A stretch of DNA of 64,000 nt, from assembly GCF_006334915.2 (NCBI RefSeq), contig NZ_VDMA02000034.1:1-64000 (forward strand), read 5' to 3'. The DNA is from Microbispora catharanthi. GTDB lineage: Bacteria > Actinomycetota > Actinomycetes > Streptosporangiales > Streptosporangiaceae. The notes beneath the pieces were generated by a model, which saw nothing but the letters and a program-made list of their open reading frames with translations, was not told the DNA's origin and did not search any database. The number at the start of each line of letters is the position of its first letter. Within the stretch, counting starts at the first letter, position 1. Position numbers and translations under genes: made by a program. Below are positions 44,015 through 62,014 of this stretch, piece after piece.

Positions 44015-44671
44015 GTGCCTGATCTGAATCCCCAGTCGATCGCCTCCTACTGGGACGCGGAGGCAGACACCTTCGACGACGAAGCCGACCACGGGCTTCG
44101 CGACCTCCGGGTCCGCGCGGCCTGGGCGGGACGGCTGCGGTCCTGGATGCCGCGGCCTCCCACCGACGTCCTCGACCTGGGCTGCGGCACCGGGTCGCTG
44201 ACGCTGCTGCTGGCCGAGCAGGGACACCGGCCGGTGGGCGTGGACCTGTCCCCGAGAATGGCCGAGGCGGCCCGGGGCAAGCTCGCCGCGGCGGGCTTCA
44301 CCGCGCCCGTCCTCACCGGCGACGCGAGCGACCCGCCGGCCGCCGCCGGAACCTCCTTCGACGTCGTCCTGGCCAGGCATCTGCTGTGGACCCTGCCCGC
44401 ACCGGAGCGCGCGTTGCGCACCTGGATGAGTCTGCTGCGCCCGCACGGCCGGCTGATCCTCATCGAGGGCAACTGGCAGGCCTCCGGGGACGGCCCGCCG
44501 TACGTGCCGGGCGCCGGCTCCCTGCCCTGGCTCGGCGGGGTGAGCGCCGAACCTCTGGTCGAGGTGCTGCGGCCGTACGCCGCGAGCGTGGGGGTGGAGC
44601 CGCTGACCGACCCCGTGCTGTGGGGCAAGCCCATCCACGACGAACGGTACGCCGTCATCGCCCACCGCTGA
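44015..44671 (+). CDS. class I SAM-dependent methyltransferase
   Basis: A 218-residue methyltransferase: VLDLGCGTGSLTLLLAEQG (about residues 52-70) is the SAM-binding loop, PVGVDLSPRMAEAARG motif II and LTGDASDPP the acidic motif. The opening SIASYWDAEADTFDDEADHG is typical of small-molecule methyltransferases in actinomycetes. GTG at 44015 has no ribosome site; the start may be leaderless. Substrate unknown. Confidence 0.87.
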   Translation: MPDLNPQSIASYWDAEADTFDDEADHGLRDLRVRAAWAGRLRSWMPRPPTDVLDLGCGTGSLTLLLAEQGHRPVGVDLSPRMAEAARGKLAAAGFTAPVLTGDASDPPAAAGTSFDVVLARHLLWTLPAPERALRTWMSLLRPHGRLILIEGNWQASGDGPPYVPGAGSLPWLGGVSAEPLVEVLRPYAASVGVEPLTDPVLWGKPIHDERYAVIAHR

Positions 44672-44927
44672 GCCTGCGCTTTCTCCGGAAAACACGCAAT
44701 GCCGAATCCGTAAACGTCTCGGCAATTAGTCGAAGCGCATTGTCGGCGAAATGCGGAGGCAAAGCGGAGGCCGGTCAACGACGTCGTCGTCGATAGCCAC
44801 GCCCATTGGCACCTATGGAATGCCACAGCGAACGGCCCGGGAGGGGTCAACTCGCCTGGACGGGCTCCGGCGGCGTGTGCCAACGATTGAGATACGACCC
44901 GATCGCTGATCGGAGAGGAGTATCTCT

Positions 44928-46040
44928 ATGCACGGCACTCGATTCTCATTACTGCTGGGTCCGGCAGTCCTGTCCGCGGTTACGCTCTGGCCGGCCATCG
45001 CATCGGCCTCCACCGCCGCCCACCCCTCCGGCCTCGCCGCCGCGCTCAGCGCGCCGCGGGCCGAGGAGCCGGGCACCAGCCTCGGCGAACAGTCGGAGGA
45101 GGCGGCTCAGCAGAGCGGACGCGCGTACGAGGAGGAGAGCGGGTACGGGCCGGAGAGCGCCCAGGAAGGTTCATCGAGCGAGGAGTCGAGCGGCAGCCAG
45201 TCCCAGAGCAACATCGCCTACCACCGCTCGCGGGCCTCGCTGGGCGAGTCGTCGCTGCGTTCGTCGTCGCTGCGTTCGTCGTCACTGCGCGAGTCGTCGC
45301 TGCGCTCGTCATTGCTGCGGAGCAGCAGTCCGGCGCTCCGCGAGCAGTCGTCGTACAGCCGTCCGATCAGCTACACGCGGACGATCACCTATCGGCGCCC
45401 GGTCACCGAGATGCGTATGGTGACCGAGAGCCGTCCGGTCACGTTCACCCGGCAGGTCACCTTCCGGCGCCCGGTCACCGAGACGCGGATGGTCACCCGG
45501 ATGCGTCCGGTCACCGAAACGCGTCAGGTGTCCTACCAGCGCCCCGTGACCTACACGCGCATGATCACGGAAAGCCGGCCGGTCACCCGCCAGGTGACCT
45601 ACCAGCGCCCGGTCACCCAGACGCGGTACGTCACCGAATCGCGTCCGGTGACGCGCTACGTCACCTACCAGCGCCCGGTGGTGAGCTACGTCACCGAGAG
45701 CCGACCGGTCACCCACCAGGAGACCTACCAGCGGCCCATCACCGAGACGCGCTACGTCACCGAGTCACGTCCGGTCACCCGGCAGGAAACCTTCCGGCGC
45801 CCGGTCACCGAGACGCGCTTCGTCACGGAAAGCCGTCCGGTCAGCTACACCCGGATGGTGCCGGAGACTCGCGAGGTGCAGTCCACGCACTTCGTCAGCG
45901 AGAGCCGTCCGGTCAGCTACACGCGCATGATGACCTACCGGCGCCCGGTCAGCGAGACCCGGTACGTCACCGAGTCACGGCAGGTCACCGGCTACAGCCG
46001 GCCCATGATGCACTCCTCCAGCGAGGACTGCGACCCGTGA
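44928..46040 (+). CDS. secreted protein made of RPVT repeats
   Basis: A 370-residue protein, ATG with AGAGGAG 7 nt upstream. Residues 1-28 are a signal peptide (LLGPAVLSAVTLWPAIASAS). Residues 30-140 are Ser/Glu/Gln-rich and include SSLR tandem copies at about 104-130. From residue 145 to about 352 it is built from about 17 units of 10-12 residues, RPVTETRxVTES alternating with RPVT(YT)RQVTYQ. The even spacing of Thr, Val, Tyr and Arg suggests stacked beta strands with a highly basic face. The C-terminus SSSEDCDP has the only mature Cys. No catalytic or sorting motif is seen; a surface or matrix role is inference. It converges on an ECF sigma gene with 66 bp overlap. Confidence 0.85.
   Translation: MHGTRFSLLLGPAVLSAVTLWPAIASASTAAHPSGLAAALSAPRAEEPGTSLGEQSEEAAQQSGRAYEEESGYGPESAQEGSSSEESSGSQSQSNIAYHRSRASLGESSLRSSSLRSSSLRESSLRSSLLRSSSPALREQSSYSRPISYTRTITYRRPVTEMRMVTESRPVTFTRQVTFRRPVTETRMVTRMRPVTETRQVSYQRPVTYTRMITESRPVTRQVTYQRPVTQTRYVTESRPVTRYVTYQRPVVSYVTESRPVTHQETYQRPITETRYVTESRPVTRQETFRRPVTETRFVTESRPVSYTRMVPETREVQSTHFVSESRPVSYTRMMTYRRPVSETRYVTESRQVTGYSRPMMHSSSEDCDP
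45360..45995 (+). repeat. array of about 17 degenerate 30-36 bp coding repeats
   Basis: Each unit starts with CGxCCGGT (Arg-Pro-Val) and encodes RPV(T/S) plus 6-8 residues. Units ending in ES alternate with units ending in YQ, YR or FR, so the higher-order repeat is about 22-24 codons. Units differ at many third positions, so the array is old rather than a fresh expansion. Confidence 0.85.
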
Positions 46041-46655
46041 GCCGGGAAGCGAGGTCCTGACATCCAGTAGGGCCACGAGGGGCATGGGCGTTCCCGCCCG
46101 TGCCCCTTCCACGTGTCCAGGCACGCTCAGCGTTCCCCGCCTTCGTTCGCGGAGGAGTTTGGCCAGGGCTCGTGCGGTCGTGGATCTGACGGTGCTCTGC
46201 CCCACCCCCATGACCAGGGCGATCTCGGAGTCCGCCAGGTCGAGGTAGTAACGCAGCACCAGCGCCTCCCGCTGGCGCCTGGGCAGCCGGGCCAGTGCCC
46301 GCAGCACCTGCCTGCGGGACTCGCCGATGAGGACGGCGGTCTCCGCCGAGTCGGCGAGGTCGGTGACCCGCTGCGTGCGGCGCAGCATGACCGCGCGGCG
46401 GCGCAGCACCGACCGCGACCCGTTGAGCACACAGGTCCGCAGATAGGCGAGCGTCAGATCCGGGGGCCGCCGCCGGCCGTGCAGCCGGGCGAAGACGTCC
46501 TGCACCACGTCCTCCGCCGACTCCAGGTCGCCGACGAGCAGCACCGCGAGCCGCACCAGGCCGACCCGGTGCTCGCGGTACAGCCCCGCCAGATCGGACT
46601 CGGGAGGCGGCGCCGGCGATGCGAGCGCCGTCAACCGTAGGGATTCACGATCCAT
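45975..46655 (-). CDS. ECF sigma factor (SigE-like)
   Basis: A 226-residue sigma-70-family factor. Region 2: LAGLYREHRVGLVRLAVLL and DLESAEDVVQDVFARLHGR; region 4: LPRRQREALVLRYYLDLAD, then SEIALVMGVGQSTVRSTTAR as the HTH. After region 4 there is an extra tail of about 50 residues (SVPGHVEGARAGTPMPLVAL and on) whose DNA contains the terminator of the convergent repeat gene, so its conservation is doubtful. ATG at 46655, weak ribosome site. No anti-sigma gene is adjacent; the neighbouring secreted repeat protein is a candidate target. Confidence 0.88.
   Translation of the reverse strand: MDRESLRLTALASPAPPPESDLAGLYREHRVGLVRLAVLLVGDLESAEDVVQDVFARLHGRRRPPDLTLAYLRTCVLNGSRSVLRRRAVMLRRTQRVTDLADSAETAVLIGESRRQVLRALARLPRRQREALVLRYYLDLADSEIALVMGVGQSTVRSTTARALAKLLRERRRGTLSVPGHVEGARAGTPMPLVALLDVRTSLPGSRVAVLAGGVHHGPAVAGDLP
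46078..46107 (+). terminator. terminator hairpin of the RPVT-repeat gene
   Basis: AGGGGCATGGGCG and CGCCCGTGCCCCT pair over 13 positions with one mismatch and a TTCC loop, 38 bp after the repeat-gene stop and inside the 3' part of the opposing sigma gene. Confidence 0.6.
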
Positions 46656-47221: not shown

Positions 47222-48775
47222 TCACTTCCCGGTGTCCTGCTTGCTCCCGGGCGTGCAGTACGGGCAGAACGGCTCGCGCTGGACGCAGACCTTGACCGTG
47301 TCGCTGTCGTTGGCCGGGTCGAGGTCGAGCTCCTTGCCGCCGACGGTGGCGGTGTTGACCGTCTCCCCGATCGCGGTGGCCTTCGCGCGGACGACCAGCG
47401 TGGCCGTCGCGCCACTGGCCAGCGTTCCCACGGTCCACGTTCCACCGGCGTACGTGCCGGTCGAGCGCGTGGACGACAGGAAGGCGAGGTTGGCCGGCAG
47501 GACGTCCTTGACGGCGACGCCCGTGGCGTCGTTGGGCCCGGCGTTGGCGACCGTGACGCGGTAGGTGACGGTCTCCCCCACGGTGACCTCGGTCTTGTCC
47601 GCGGACTTGACCACGCTCAGGTCGACGGCCGGGTTGACCTCGGTGACGGCGTCACCGCTGGTGGAGGTCAACGGCTCGGGCTCGGGGCCGAGCCGGTTCT
47701 CGTAGGCGACCGCGCCGCTGTTGACGACCTGCTTGCCCGCGACCGCCCTGCCGACCTTGACCCGGAACTCCACGGTGGTGCCGTCCGGCAGGGTGGTGTC
47801 GTTGGCCAGCCGACCCCCCGTCGTGCCCGTGGCGCCGTCTCCCAGCCTGAAGGAGACAGCACCGGTGGCGGCGTCGAACTCGGCCTGGTCGTCGCCGGCC
47901 TGGTCGGTCATGGCGCCGCTGCCCGGGCCGCTCACGACGCGGAGCGAGCCGGGCACGTAGGTGGTCCCGGCCGGGACCTTGTCGGTGAGCCGGACGTTCT
48001 GCGCGACGTCGCCCCCCTTGTCGACGGCGGTCAGCCGGTAGGTGATCTCGTCGCCGACGTCCACCGGCCCCTGCGGGCTCGCGGACTTGGTGACGACGAC
48101 GCACGGCGGGGTGCCGAAGAAGACGTCGTCGAGGAAGTTGCCGATCGCCGCGTTGCCCCCGGCGGCGGAGATGGAACGGAAGGCGAACCTGGTGATCGTC
48201 TGCCCGGCGGGCACGGTGTAGGTGCCGTGGTAGGCGCCCCACTTAGCGGTGCCGTCGGACATGATCCCCTGCTGGGCGGGACCCGAGGGAGCGCCGATGT
48301 CCAGCGCCATCTGGTCGGTGCCGAGACGCCCGCGGTGGGACAGCCGCCAGTACAGCTTCTGGCCCGGAGTGGTCGGACGGTCCTGGTAGAGGGTCGAGAC
48401 CTGGTTGGCGTTCAGCTCCGCGAACTGCGCGCCCTCGACCGCCGGAACGTTCATCCGGGGGCTCCAGACCTCGATCATGTGATCGGTGGCGGTCGTCCGC
48501 CAGCCCGGCACCGCGTTCGGGTTGTTCTGCGAGGCGTCGGGGAACGAAGCCCACGTCCCCGCGACGACGGGCTTCTCGAAGCCGCCGTCGACCAGCGCCA
48601 CCTGCTCAGGACACGACGCGGGGTTCGGCGCCGCGGCCCGCTGCGCCGCCGTGGCCGCGGCCTCGACACGGGCGGGCGCGGCGTCGGCAGGGACCGCTCC
48701 GCACAGCGTCAGGGGGACAGCCGCCGCCACCAGGGCGGCGACGGGGTAACACATCCTGCGGATGTGCCTCATCAT
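47222..48775 (-). CDS. secreted surface protein with two DUF11 repeats
   Basis: A 517-residue exported protein. Signal peptide in residues 1-32 (YPVAALVAAAVPLTLCGA). Residues about 60-240 are a lectin-like or CBM-like beta domain (VALVDGGFEKPVVAGTWASF, GTYTVPAGQTITRFAFRS). Two DUF11 modules follow: CVVVTKSASPQGPVDVGDE and VDLSVVKSADKTEVTVGET, each with the family's DVLP-type NVRLTDKVPAGTTYV/VAVKDVLPANLAFL. The C-terminus CVQREPFCPYCTPGSKQDT has three Cys and no LPXTG signal. ATG at 48775 with AGAGGAC 6 nt upstream. Probably wall-associated. Confidence 0.85.
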   Translation of the reverse strand: MMRHIRRMCYPVAALVAAAVPLTLCGAVPADAAPARVEAAATAAQRAAAPNPASCPEQVALVDGGFEKPVVAGTWASFPDASQNNPNAVPGWRTTATDHMIEVWSPRMNVPAVEGAQFAELNANQVSTLYQDRPTTPGQKLYWRLSHRGRLGTDQMALDIGAPSGPAQQGIMSDGTAKWGAYHGTYTVPAGQTITRFAFRSISAAGGNAAIGNFLDDVFFGTPPCVVVTKSASPQGPVDVGDEITYRLTAVDKGGDVAQNVRLTDKVPAGTTYVPGSLRVVSGPGSGAMTDQAGDDQAEFDAATGAVSFRLGDGATGTTGGRLANDTTLPDGTTVEFRVKVGRAVAGKQVVNSGAVAYENRLGPEPEPLTSTSGDAVTEVNPAVDLSVVKSADKTEVTVGETVTYRVTVANAGPNDATGVAVKDVLPANLAFLSSTRSTGTYAGGTWTVGTLASGATATLVVRAKATAIGETVNTATVGGKELDLDPANDSDTVKVCVQREPFCPYCTPGSKQDTGK

Positions 48776-48939
48776 GAACGTCCTCTCGTCGTGGCGATTC
48801 ACCAGGCCGTACGAGCGGCGCTGGCACCGCAGGGAAGATTCGTCCGACGGGGACGAGAGGCGCGGCACGACACGTGCGGCCGTGCCAACAGTTGGCCGGA
48901 TCTTGTTCTCTGCCGACCCTGTGCAGGGAAGATCTAGAT

Positions 48940-58687: not shown

Positions 58688-59620
58688 CTAGTCGGTGAGC
58701 AGGATGTCGTCCAGGCACAGCGTGTACGGCGCGTCCGCGCCGCCCACCTGGAACAACACCTGGGCCTCCCGGTCGGAGGTCTTGGCGGTGTTCTGGTAGG
58801 CGTAGGTCCTGGAGCCGGTGCCGACCTCGGGGTAGCCGTCCACGATCGCGGCGTGCGTCTCACCGCTGCCCTGGACCACTGACCTGATCTTCACCGTCCG
58901 CGTCGCCGACGCCTTGAAACTCAGCCGGTACGTCTTCCCGGCCTCCACGGCGATTCCGCTCTGCCCGATCATCGCGGCCCACACGTTGTCACCACCCGCG
59001 GGGACGTGAGCGCACAACCGCCCTCCCGTCGCCTCGATCGGGGTGTTCTTGGACGCCCACCAACCCTTGACCCCGTTGTCCAGCGAGCCGTTCACCACAC
59101 TCTGGTGCACGGGCACGAGGGACACATTGTCCAGGCACAACGTGTACGGCGCGTCCGCGCCGCCCACCTGGAACAACACCTGGGCCTCCGAGTCCGACAC
59201 TTTGGCCGTGGCCGCGTAGGTGAACTTCTTCGGGCTGCCGCCGACCTCGGGGTAGCCGTCCACGATCGCGGCGTGCGTCTCGCCGCTGCCCTGGACTACC
59301 GACCTGATCCTGGTCGTCTTCGTGGCGGTCGCCTCGAAGCTCAACTGGTAGGTCCGTCCAGCCTGGACCGCGACGCCGCTCTGCCCGATCATCGCAGCCC
59401 ACACGTTCTCACCCCCTGCGGGGACCTGGGCGCACAACCGACCGCCCGTCACGTTGATCGGGGTGTTCTTGGACGCCCACCAGCCCTTGACCCCGTTGTC
59501 CAGCGAGCCGTTGACCACGACGTCGCCGGCGGGCGCAGCGGCGTACGCGGGAGTCGCCGCCGCGGCCATTGCCGCAAAGGCGCCGACGGCGATGAGACGC
59601 ATCGAAAGAGGATTCCGCAT
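58688..59620 (-). CDS. secreted protein of two near-identical carbohydrate-binding-like modules
   Basis: 310 residues: signal peptide 1-28 (LIAVGAFAAMAAAATPAYAA), then two copies of a module of about 138 residues, each beginning VVNGSLDNGVKGWWASKNTP and ending ADAPYTLCLD(N/D). The layout (LDNG...W, ENVWAAMIGQSGV, YQLSFEATAT) matches CBM4/9-type beta sandwiches. There is no catalytic domain. The copies are also highly similar in DNA, so the duplication is recent or under conversion. ATG with AAGGAAG upstream. It may bind polysaccharide outside the cell. Confidence 0.85.
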   Translation of the reverse strand: MRNPLSMRLIAVGAFAAMAAAATPAYAAAPAGDVVVNGSLDNGVKGWWASKNTPINVTGGRLCAQVPAGGENVWAAMIGQSGVAVQAGRTYQLSFEATATKTTRIRSVVQGSGETHAAIVDGYPEVGGSPKKFTYAATAKVSDSEAQVLFQVGGADAPYTLCLDNVSLVPVHQSVVNGSLDNGVKGWWASKNTPIEATGGRLCAHVPAGGDNVWAAMIGQSGIAVEAGKTYRLSFKASATRTVKIRSVVQGSGETHAAIVDGYPEVGTGSRTYAYQNTAKTSDREAQVLFQVGGADAPYTLCLDDILLTD

Positions 59621-60020: not shown

Positions 60021-61379
60021 TCACATCCTGTGCAGGAATGCGGTCCACTGCTGCCAGAACAGGGAGCTCCTCGTGGTGACGAACGCGTCCCTCTGCAGTT
60101 TGAGGCGGTACAGCGCGTCGAAGAGCGCGTCGCTGCCCTGCATGTTGCCGAAACTCGCCCTCGACACCAGCTCCACGTACACCTTGAGCGCGGTCGCGTG
60201 GCCCTTGGCCTCGGCGATGAACTGGAACAGCGACCAGCCCAGCGAGTAGTTGAACGAGCGGTACTTGTCATCGTAGAAGTGCTCGTTGTTGGGCAGGTCC
60301 GCGCGCAGCAGGCCCTTGGCCAGGCCGTCACGGATCACCCACCTGTCGCCAGCCGCCGGGGTCCCGCGGTTCTCAATGTAGCGGGCGAAGCCCTCGACGG
60401 CCCACCGGGGCGCGGACAGGCTCAGCCCCGTGCCTGCGGCACCGCTTACCGGGCCGAGCTCGATGTCGATCGGCTGCACCGCCGTACTGATCGCGTGGGT
60501 GATCTCGTGCTTCATCACCCCCAGCGGATTGTCCGCCTTGATGGCGATCTCCATGTTGACCACGACGCGCGAGCCCACGTAGTGGCCCGTGACATCGATC
60601 TTGTCGGTGGTGGCGCCGTACAGGGGGATCTCCACGCCCTCCGACCAGCTGGGCGTGCCCGCGCCGAACCACTTCTTGTAGCTGGCGGGCCTGCGGGTCA
60701 GGAACAGGGCGAAGCCGGAGGGTGCCGGGTTGCTCAGCCAGTCGCGGCGCACCTCGGCGCTGGCCCTGGTGGCGACCTTGACGTAGGTGTCGAAGTCGGG
60801 CACCGACCCATCCGTGGCCAGCACCACGTCCCCGCGCTTGGCGACGGTCAGCGGGGTCAGCTCCCACGGCGAGTCGTAGGTCGCCCTGTAGTCGTCGGTG
60901 TCGGGCCCGACGTCGATCAGCATGTACCGCCCGTTCATCATCGCGAACAGGTAAATGAAATCGCTGGCGCTGCTGGCCTTGTCGACCCCGGCCATCTTGG
61001 AGAGCATGCGGACCTTGAAGCCGTCGACGTTCTGCGGCAACGTCTTGGTGTGGCGCTGGGGCTCGGCGACCAGCGGGCCGCTGCCAGGTCCGCTGGACAG
61101 CTGCAGGGTTTCCCACTTGAACTTGCGCAGATTTGCGAAGTGCAGCTTCTGGCTCGCCATCAGCGCGGCGTTGGACGTGTCGACGTCCGCGAGCCAGGCC
61201 TGCTCGTCATGGGAGCGCAGCGCAGCGTTGCGGCGCTCGACGAAGCGCTTGACGTCGGCCTGCATGTCCGTGGCGTCGCGCGTCTTCTCCACCCCTGTCA
61301 GAACGCCGGGCAGGCGGCACCCGCTCAGCAGGAACACCGATCCGGTGAACGTGAACAGGGCACGACGGCGTGTCAGCAC
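60021..61379 (-). CDS. lipoprotein zinc metallopeptidase (gluzincin-like)
   Basis: 452 residues. The signal peptide RRRALFTFTGSVFLLSGC ends in a lipobox Cys near residue 20, so it is tethered to the outer face of the membrane. A domain of about 170 residues follows, then the catalytic part with VMKHEITHAIS (His291, Glu292, His295) and WAVEGFARYIENRG, the downstream Glu of MA-clan peptidases. GTG at 61379 after GGAGGAAGG. It overlaps the pseudo-subtilase gene by 7 bp and is translated after it. Confidence 0.85.
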   Translation of the reverse strand: MLTRRRALFTFTGSVFLLSGCRLPGVLTGVEKTRDATDMQADVKRFVERRNAALRSHDEQAWLADVDTSNAALMASQKLHFANLRKFKWETLQLSSGPGSGPLVAEPQRHTKTLPQNVDGFKVRMLSKMAGVDKASSASDFIYLFAMMNGRYMLIDVGPDTDDYRATYDSPWELTPLTVAKRGDVVLATDGSVPDFDTYVKVATRASAEVRRDWLSNPAPSGFALFLTRRPASYKKWFGAGTPSWSEGVEIPLYGATTDKIDVTGHYVGSRVVVNMEIAIKADNPLGVMKHEITHAISTAVQPIDIELGPVSGAAGTGLSLSAPRWAVEGFARYIENRGTPAAGDRWVIRDGLAKGLLRADLPNNEHFYDDKYRSFNYSLGWSLFQFIAEAKGHATALKVYVELVSRASFGNMQGSDALFDALYRLKLQRDAFVTTRSSLFWQQWTAFLHRM

Positions 61380-62014
61380 GTAGACCTTCCTCCATGGACG
61401 CTGATGGTCGGGCAGTACGGTGCGGCGGCCGCCCGGTCGGGTGCGGCGCGAGCCGCGGCCTGTACCGCGGCCCGGGCGTTGATCAGGCCGCGGCCCAGGA
61501 AGACGGTGTAACCCCGCGCGGGCTTGACGGCCGTCTCGACGAGGACGCGGCGCACCTGACGCGGGCTCAGGCCGGGAGCGCGGGACATCATCAGGGCCAC
61601 CGTCCCCGCGGCGAGCGCGTAGGCCGGAGAGGTGCCGTCCACCAGCTGGTACCCGCCCGTGTTCGAGGCGCTGTATATGTCGACGCCCGGAGCGGCGATC
61701 GTGGTGTACGAGTGCACCTGCGAGAAATCCGCCCGCCTCCCGTCCGGCCTCATCGCGGCGACACCCTTGTCCACGGCGTGGTGCGCGATCAAGCCGCCAC
61801 CGGCCAGGACGGCCAGCTTGCCCAGGCAGAGGGCGATGACACCCATCACGACGCGCCACGCCTTCCTCCTCTCCCGGGGCGGAGGGGGCGCGCCGGGCCG
61901 GGACATGCCGGGCGGGTACATGCCGGGCGGGGGCTCGGCGGCCTGCGATGGCGGTCCCGGCCAGGGCTGCGGGTATCCCTGCACGGGCGGGCGCCCTTGC
62001 GAGGGGTGGACCAT
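61373..62014 (-). CDS. membrane-anchored degenerate subtilase (Ser subdomain only)
   Basis: 213 residues. Residues 1-48 are Pro/Gly-rich and cytosolic (PPGMYPPGMSRPGAPPPP), a helix spans about 52-78 (VVMGVIALCLGKLAVLAGGG), and the outside part matches only the last third of a peptidase S8 domain: TTIAAPGVDIYSAS, GTSPAYALAAGTVALMMSRA, then LSPRQVRRVLVETAVKPA. Ser129 is kept, but the GTSMA motif reads GTSPA, and the catalytic Asp and His subdomains are absent. It resembles the end of a mycosin/type VII subtilase but cannot be an active protease. ATG at 62014 with AGGAG 7 nt upstream; coupled to the metallopeptidase. Confidence 0.78.
   Translation of the reverse strand: MVHPSQGRPPVQGYPQPWPGPPSQAAEPPPGMYPPGMSRPGAPPPPRERRKAWRVVMGVIALCLGKLAVLAGGGLIAHHAVDKGVAAMRPDGRRADFSQVHSYTTIAAPGVDIYSASNTGGYQLVDGTSPAYALAAGTVALMMSRAPGLSPRQVRRVLVETAVKPARGYTVFLGRGLINARAAVQAAARAAPDRAAAAPYCPTISVHGGRSTC

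Follow-up and report, generated by a model that had tools for sequence, protein, structure and literature searches.

The open reading frame at 44928-46040 on the forward strand of the Microbispora catharanthi stretch analysed here (64,000 nucleotides in all, hereafter the window) encodes a 370-residue protein built around an array of RPVT-type repeats. We propose that this RPVT protein is exported and has a structural role at the surface of the cell or spore, and that it belongs to a family whose members are probably co-expressed, a reading drawn from sequence to which we give a probability of roughly 0.4. The gene itself can be taken as real, since an ortholog with the same frame and start is present in 14 of 15 Microbispora genomes, counting that of the window. 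The strongest alternative to the surface role, a disordered cationic binder, is considered below together with other rivals.

The protein is arranged as a signal peptide, an acidic Ser/Glu stretch, an SSLR stretch, the RP[VI] array, and a Cys-bearing tail (Table 1). A first-pass annotation of this DNA had described a signal peptide followed by a Ser/Glu-rich segment with SSLR copies, and all of these are present by sequence. We read residues 1-29 as a putative signal peptide with a cleavage-like motif, ASA. The SSLR segment differs in length among orthologs, and in the window Tandem Repeats Finder places a 15-bp tandem repeat inside it (45237-45319). The single mature Cys that had been noted earlier, without its place, proves to be residue 368 of 370, near the C-terminus. 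Every one of the 18 orthologs has one Cys and no more; it is one of the last three residues in the Microbispora proteins (14) and in the two from genus g35, and lies deeper in the remaining two, L038 and L039, at 155 and 110 residues before the C-terminus.

Table 1. Features of the RPVT gene and its upstream region (window positions).
Feature	Position	Strand	Remarks
Promoter-like element GGTCAACT-N3-CTGGACG-N20-ACGATTGA	44845..44890	+	Precedes the RPVT orthologs of four genera in conserved form
5' leader	44889..44927	+	Possible pairing of GAGATAC (44889-44895) and GTATCTC (44920-44926)
Putative signal peptide head MHGTRFSLLLGPAVLSAVTLWPAIASAST	44928..45014	+	Residues 1-29
TTA leucine codon	44949..44951	+	Codon 8; sole TTA in the RPVT gene
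Ser/Glu-rich acidic segment	45015..45215	+	Residues 30-96, net charge -10
SSLR repeat segment	45216..45350	+	Residues 97-141, net charge +5
RPVT array	45351..45989	+	Residues 142-354; 17 RP[VI] units, mostly of 12 or 10 residues; net charge +21
C-terminal tail and stop	45990..46040	+	Single mature Cys368 at 46029-46031

The count of 17 RP[VI] units, 14 of them strictly RPV[T/S], agrees with the earlier estimate of about 17 RPVT repeats, and the successive spacings between units in the window protein are 12, 12, 12, 12, 12, 12, 10, 12, 10, 10, 10, 12, 10, 12, 24, and 12 residues. Self-similarity within the array peaks at lags 6 and 12 (identity 0.40 and 0.39, against a maximum of 0.24 in 500 shuffles), and the basic repeat is thus six residues long, or twelve if taken as a double unit. 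The 22-24-residue higher-order period reported in the first-pass annotation does exist, at lags 22 and 24 (identity 0.31 and 0.34), but is weaker than these and is not the main period. At the DNA level the array units are only about 64-81% alike (Tandem Repeats Finder), suggesting an old array that is maintained at the protein level. Unit order is kept across most Microbispora species, and many Thr, Val, Arg, and Pro columns of the array are invariant among 16 orthologs; the cationic character and regular Thr/Val/Arg spacing remarked on earlier are both evident.

The spacing of the units follows a simple rule. Across the 18 orthologs (the window protein among them), 261 of 263 intervals from the proline of one unit to that of the next span an even number of residues, a count that leaves out two intervals longer than 36 residues (39 in L038 and 40 in L039) and in which the intervals are not independent because the orthologs share history. 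Both odd intervals involve the first unit, one in L012 and the other in L014, and in L014 the unit order differs, yet the even spacing holds past the first unit. In a beta strand, a step of two residues leaves side chains on the same face, so the even-spacing rule would suit an extended strand array and indirectly favors extended beta strands. The stacked beta structure suggested in the first-pass annotation was not recovered: AlphaFold2 produced no usable fold for the whole protein (mean pLDDT 41, with four long strands drawn), and its model of the array alone (pLDDT 40, with about one strand drawn per unit) carries no weight. AlphaFold2 is often unsuccessful on repeat proteins with shallow alignments.

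Searches of the window protein returned nothing above cut-off in Pfam, NCBIfam, or the PDB, in keeping with the earlier view that it contains no named domain, and by PDB sequence search the RPVT protein has no relative of known structure. PHROGs, which has no cut-off, gave phrog_21172, of unknown function, at E 1.4e-5 over residues 200-229, with no stretch passing alone. The YsnF/AvaK model (TIGR02271) scored 18.5 bits (E 0.0016) with the window protein, below its cut-off of 49.75, and 10 of the 18 orthologs match it at E up to 1. A strong hit to an existing repeat family, which the first-pass annotation had named as the finding that would count against a new repeat class, is absent for the window protein. 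Of the 17 other orthologs, only the two from g35, L036 and L037, exceed a Pfam cut-off: they score 29.4 and 29.8 bits with Cementoin (PF10511), whose cut-off is 27, while the window protein reaches 6.4 bits and the matching Microbispora orthologs 6.5-7.8. Cementoin is a transglutaminase-binding repeat of animal trappins, whereas the window RPVT protein contains no lysine at all. In our view the match may reflect a likeness between short hexapeptide-type repeats; a cross-linked extracellular anchor of the Cementoin kind would nonetheless fit the coat reading developed below.

Chaplins, the exported surface proteins of sporulating actinomycetes, may be regarded as functional analogs of the RPVT protein, which would likewise be exported to the actinomycete surface but lacks the chaplin domain; the ChpA-C domain (PF03777) has no Pfam match among the 18 orthologs. 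All 15 Microbispora genomes, including the RPVT-less G006, have a chaplin-domain protein of their own, and RPVT would thus be an addition to the chaplins rather than a replacement for them. Chaplin-domain hits number 5 to 8 per Microbispora genome and fall mostly in one frame of about 700 residues (e.g., G000:C67:349334-350764), which we read as a multi-chaplin protein in the 15 genomes. The RPVT family is not named in the portions available to us of the literature on exported or surface proteins of Microbispora and the Streptosporangiaceae, on YTV proteins, or on bldA and TTA codons.

Matches at E<=1e-3 were found in 33 of 297 Streptosporangiaceae genomes, and from these we accepted 18 proteins as true orthologs: the 14 from Microbispora and four from other genera, with identities of 58 and 58% in g35 (G097 and G048), 47% in g60 (G073), and 44% in g23 (G154). 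One Microbispora genome, G006, yielded neither the RPVT gene nor a match to its head. The matches in G102, G167, and G219 were rejected as orthologs, being to the heads of other proteins, and in twelve further genomes of the family the matches were short, with none of those read taken as an ortholog. With the cut-off set at E<=1e-6, a class sample of 394 genomes gave L063, L064, and L065 as the only matches outside Microbispora. Two of them were discarded as homologs, L064 being an RPVTGE tract within a different 526-residue frame and L063 a low-complexity frame that is perhaps the wrong one. The class samples used here (394 and 345 genomes) provide counts and no rate, as their share outside the Streptosporangiaceae is not given. 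As far as searched, RPVT orthologs appear confined to one actinobacterial family, the Streptosporangiaceae, which accords with the restriction to actinobacteria anticipated in the first-pass annotation.

Through matches to the N-terminus of the RPVT protein, and to its full-length profile, we arrived at proteins that carry a different body behind the same kind of head. A head profile, A3, built from 12 sequences, has a match in 56 of the 297 family genomes (14 of the 56 being Microbispora) and in 15 of 68 genera; the window head matches it at E 1.9e-18, which is so by construction because the first row of A3 is the window protein's own head. Beyond the family, A3 matched just one genome of the 345-genome class sample, and that weakly (G332, E 7.5e-4). 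We read 50 head matches, together with six Cys-rich Microbispora proteins and two others, and by our grouping the bodies comprise a 77-81-residue Cys-rich protein, His-rich repeats, acidic chains rich in Ser, Glu, and Gln, GY-x-x-GY proteins with two Cys and diverse tails, Met/His/Lys/Glu repeats, and Arg/Gly/Ser repeats. No match over cut-off was found in Pfam for ten representatives of the head family or in NCBIfam for seven. Low complexity was dropped as a trait of the head family, whose complexity is not significantly lower than that of the other window ORFs (p 0.06). Some of the weaker A3 matches (E 1e-4 to 1e-3) may be no more than ordinary signal peptides. Taken together, the head proteins and the RPVT gene seem to represent an undescribed set of cell-surface proteins. 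One of the Cys-rich type, L085 (G000:C55:389573-389677, minus strand), is a small, basic, exported protein of 80 residues (...KPKPPKCTYRCTNHRKYKCCPKC...) with a head as in the RPVT protein and with a leader and promoter that resemble those of the RPVT gene. Of the 15 Microbispora genomes, 13 have a second head match, which in nine was read as the L085 Cys-rich type.

The surroundings of the RPVT gene are conserved only in part. A methyltransferase gene precedes it in six of the seven Microbispora loci compared, and a gene on the opposite strand that follows it encodes a protein with Pfam sigma-70 regions 2 and 4, which we read as a sigma factor of the ECF type; this gene is matched in five of the seven loci, in two of them over short stretches. 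It was considered as a partner and rejected, as it is not near the RPVT gene in G003 or in other genera. None of the tested neighbors from the window is present at the G003 locus (L056) or at the four loci of other genera, and the two g35 loci have neighbors in common only with each other. As no tested neighbor accompanies it in G003 or in g23, g35, and g60, the gene looks like a stand-alone unit and is best seen as a single-gene unit that would have its own promoter. A DUF11-domain protein encoded at 47222-48868 on the minus strand of the window is matched near the locus in three of the seven Microbispora loci.

A candidate for such a promoter lies immediately upstream. The RPVT orthologs of four genera have GGTCAAYT-like and CTRGACG boxes with ACGATKGA about 20 bases further on, and in the window the pattern CTRGACG-N-ACGATKGA occupies 44856-44890 with a spacer of 20, 37 bases before the ATG. 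In g23 and g60 the same boxes stand upstream of the Ser/Glu/Gln-rich genes and of most His-rich ones. The Cys-rich head genes have a looser form of them; a sigma-70 consensus had no match in 44600-46300. As drawn from RPVT and related genes, the pattern that defines membership is CTRGACG-N19/20-ACGATKGA about 40-50 bases before the start, and the window carries it. A search for CTRGACG-N15..21-ACGATKGA in ten genomes of g1, g23, g35, and g60 returned 28 hits, against one hit for the backward control. Every hit with a spacer of 19 precedes a head gene (19/19), while among the other spacers only one of nine does so, this being the window's RPVT gene with its spacer of 20; all eight hits without a head gene were inspected. 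Because the pattern was drawn from known members, 16 of the 20 head-gene hits are expected, and the independent part of this result is four genes. These four are absent from the A3 protein search; the heads of L174, L193, and L198 score 22.7-23.5 bits and that of L191 12.8, and L191 is counted as a head gene because its start resembles that of L198. The L191 and L198 proteins both have strong repeats. L198 (G090:C57) is an exported protein with an RP[FMLVI]RERFxEE repeat about every ten residues, RP-based like the RPVT array, of which it is possibly a relative. In the other genera read, the region upstream of head genes is different, so we claim co-regulation only for g1, g23, g35, and g60.

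The complementary segments of the leader (Table 1) enclose a hairpin, CCGATC-GCT-GATCGG (44899-44913), and a ribosome-binding site, GAGGAG (44915-44920). The window leader has an MFE of -17.4 and a z-score of -3.34 against 200 dinucleotide shuffles; the mean over 69 leaders, some of them near-identical, is -0.79, with 13 below -2. Covariation over 17 leaders was not above that of shuffles, and Rfam gave no match for the leader. An RNA structure in the leader is a predicted possibility only. Unusual conservation of synonymous sites in the first codons was also considered and set aside: these codons looked invariant, but neighbor genes are equally conserved within Microbispora.

In all 14 Microbispora orthologs (window included) and in both from g35, codon 8 is TTA; in L039 the TTA is codon 9, and L038 lacks one. 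The codon is rare in its surroundings: 57 picked ORFs of the window contain two TTA in 17,956 codons, 1,751 of them Leu codons, and in the rest of the head family (59 proteins) TTA accounts for 2 of 400 Leu codons. The other TTA-bearing ORF among the 57 is at 60021-61859 on the minus strand. In Streptomyces, such TTA codons place a gene under bldA, and the bldA-controlled genes of that genus likewise have a rare TTA near the start that is conserved across species. The difference is in the host, the Streptosporangiaceae, where such control is doubted; a review, in the portion available to us, indicates that the developmental role of bldA may stop at the Streptomycineae (PMC4255298). A search of the genome for tRNA-Leu(UAA), using an ad hoc pattern, gave no match. 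The conserved TTA of the RPVT gene is either an exception to this limit of bldA or an accident kept by descent.

Several other accounts of these observations must be weighed. The array could be a disordered cationic polymer, devoid of any fixed fold, whose charge alone would let it bind DNA, acidic proteins, or the acidic polymers of the wall (teichoic or teichuronic acids). Its net charge, the presence of acidic and basic blocks in one chain, the AlphaFold2 pLDDT of about 40, and the lack of a relative of known structure by sequence are all consistent with this account, but the even spacing in 261 of 263 intervals and the columns invariant in 16 orthologs represent more order than binding by charge would require, and we consider it somewhat unlikely. 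The regular, Arg-bounded units also invite comparison with a peptide precursor that trypsin-like proteases would cut at Arg to release short signaling or antimicrobial peptides, and on our reading the small basic Cys-rich paralog could be a secreted antimicrobial. This we judge improbable, as the units are non-identical and their order is kept across most Microbispora species, unlike a store of equal peptides, and some paralogs are strongly acidic.

The head family might likewise not be real, if ordinary signal peptides had simply converged on a similar head. The weak A3 matches, at E 1e-4 to 1e-3 and in some cases covering only part of the head, would agree with this, as would the low score of the L191 head and a synonymous identity in the first 22 codons that is not unusual relative to neighbor genes. 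Convergence of signal peptides is nevertheless very improbable given that promoter and leader DNA are common to these genes as well, that the spacer-19 DNA pattern lies before head genes in 19 of 19 cases, and that the class sample gave one weak match outside the family. We regard as least credible of all, close to negligible, the idea that the RPVT protein belongs, as a divergent member, to the YTV repeat family of planctomycete cell-wall proteins (PF07639). The loose resemblance to planctomycete proteins mentioned in the first-pass annotation is borne out to the extent that the RPVT orthologs share with YTV proteins export, short repeats, and a weak profile resemblance: when the 17 other orthologs were scanned individually, seven matched YTV at E up to 10, the best at 16.7 bits (E 0.0075). 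YTV proteins are present in cell-wall preparations, according to an excerpt of one report (PMC8567305). Against membership, all scores are below the curated cut-off of 21 bits, the window protein has no match, and a YTV search of its own genome was empty, though the control for that search also matched nowhere. In addition, the parts of two reports available to us describe YTV proteins as Cys-rich and planctomycete-restricted (PMC8567305, PMC10632474), whereas each RPVT ortholog has one Cys and a Streptosporangiaceae host; we therefore rejected YTV membership.

In the reading we prefer, that of a structural role at the surface, the signal peptide would send the RPVT protein through Sec, the acidic Ser/Glu stretch would act as a flexible spacer, and the array would form an Arg-rich rod or sheet with one short beta strand per RP unit, while the lone Cys would permit disulfide dimers or a single attachment. 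Sequence comparison places the gene in a Streptosporangiaceae family in which a common promoter-leader-signal-peptide module is joined to unrelated bodies; as the module is shared, the members in g1, g23, g35, and g60 are probably co-expressed, and their products would build an extracellular coat. The TTA codon would hold back translation of the RPVT protein until the rare tRNA-Leu(UAA) is plentiful. This fuller scheme, of a family-specific, co-expressed coat made by joining one cassette to many bodies and with RPVT also timed by a bldA-like use of TTA, is offered tentatively and is open to considerable doubt. Several results count against the coat reading: there is no confident fold (pLDDT 41 and 40), the complexity of the head family is not significantly low and leader covariation does not exceed that of shuffles, the TTA is missing in L038 and near-absent in the rest of the head family, and G006 has neither the RPVT gene nor a head match. 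If the surface reading is true, a family of soil actinomycetes possesses an undescribed surface-protein system, whose recognizable promoter would allow members to be identified from a DNA pattern and nothing else. Such a system would also provide a test case for TTA timing of development outside Streptomyces and for gene families in which the protein changes behind a retained control region and export signal.

Repeats occur elsewhere in the window as well. A 420-base tandem repeat is present in 1.9 copies, 84% alike, at 58709-59518, and tandem repeats are packed into positions 1-522, their periods including 15, 27, and 150 bases; perhaps they belong to a repeat-rich protein truncated by the edge of the window.
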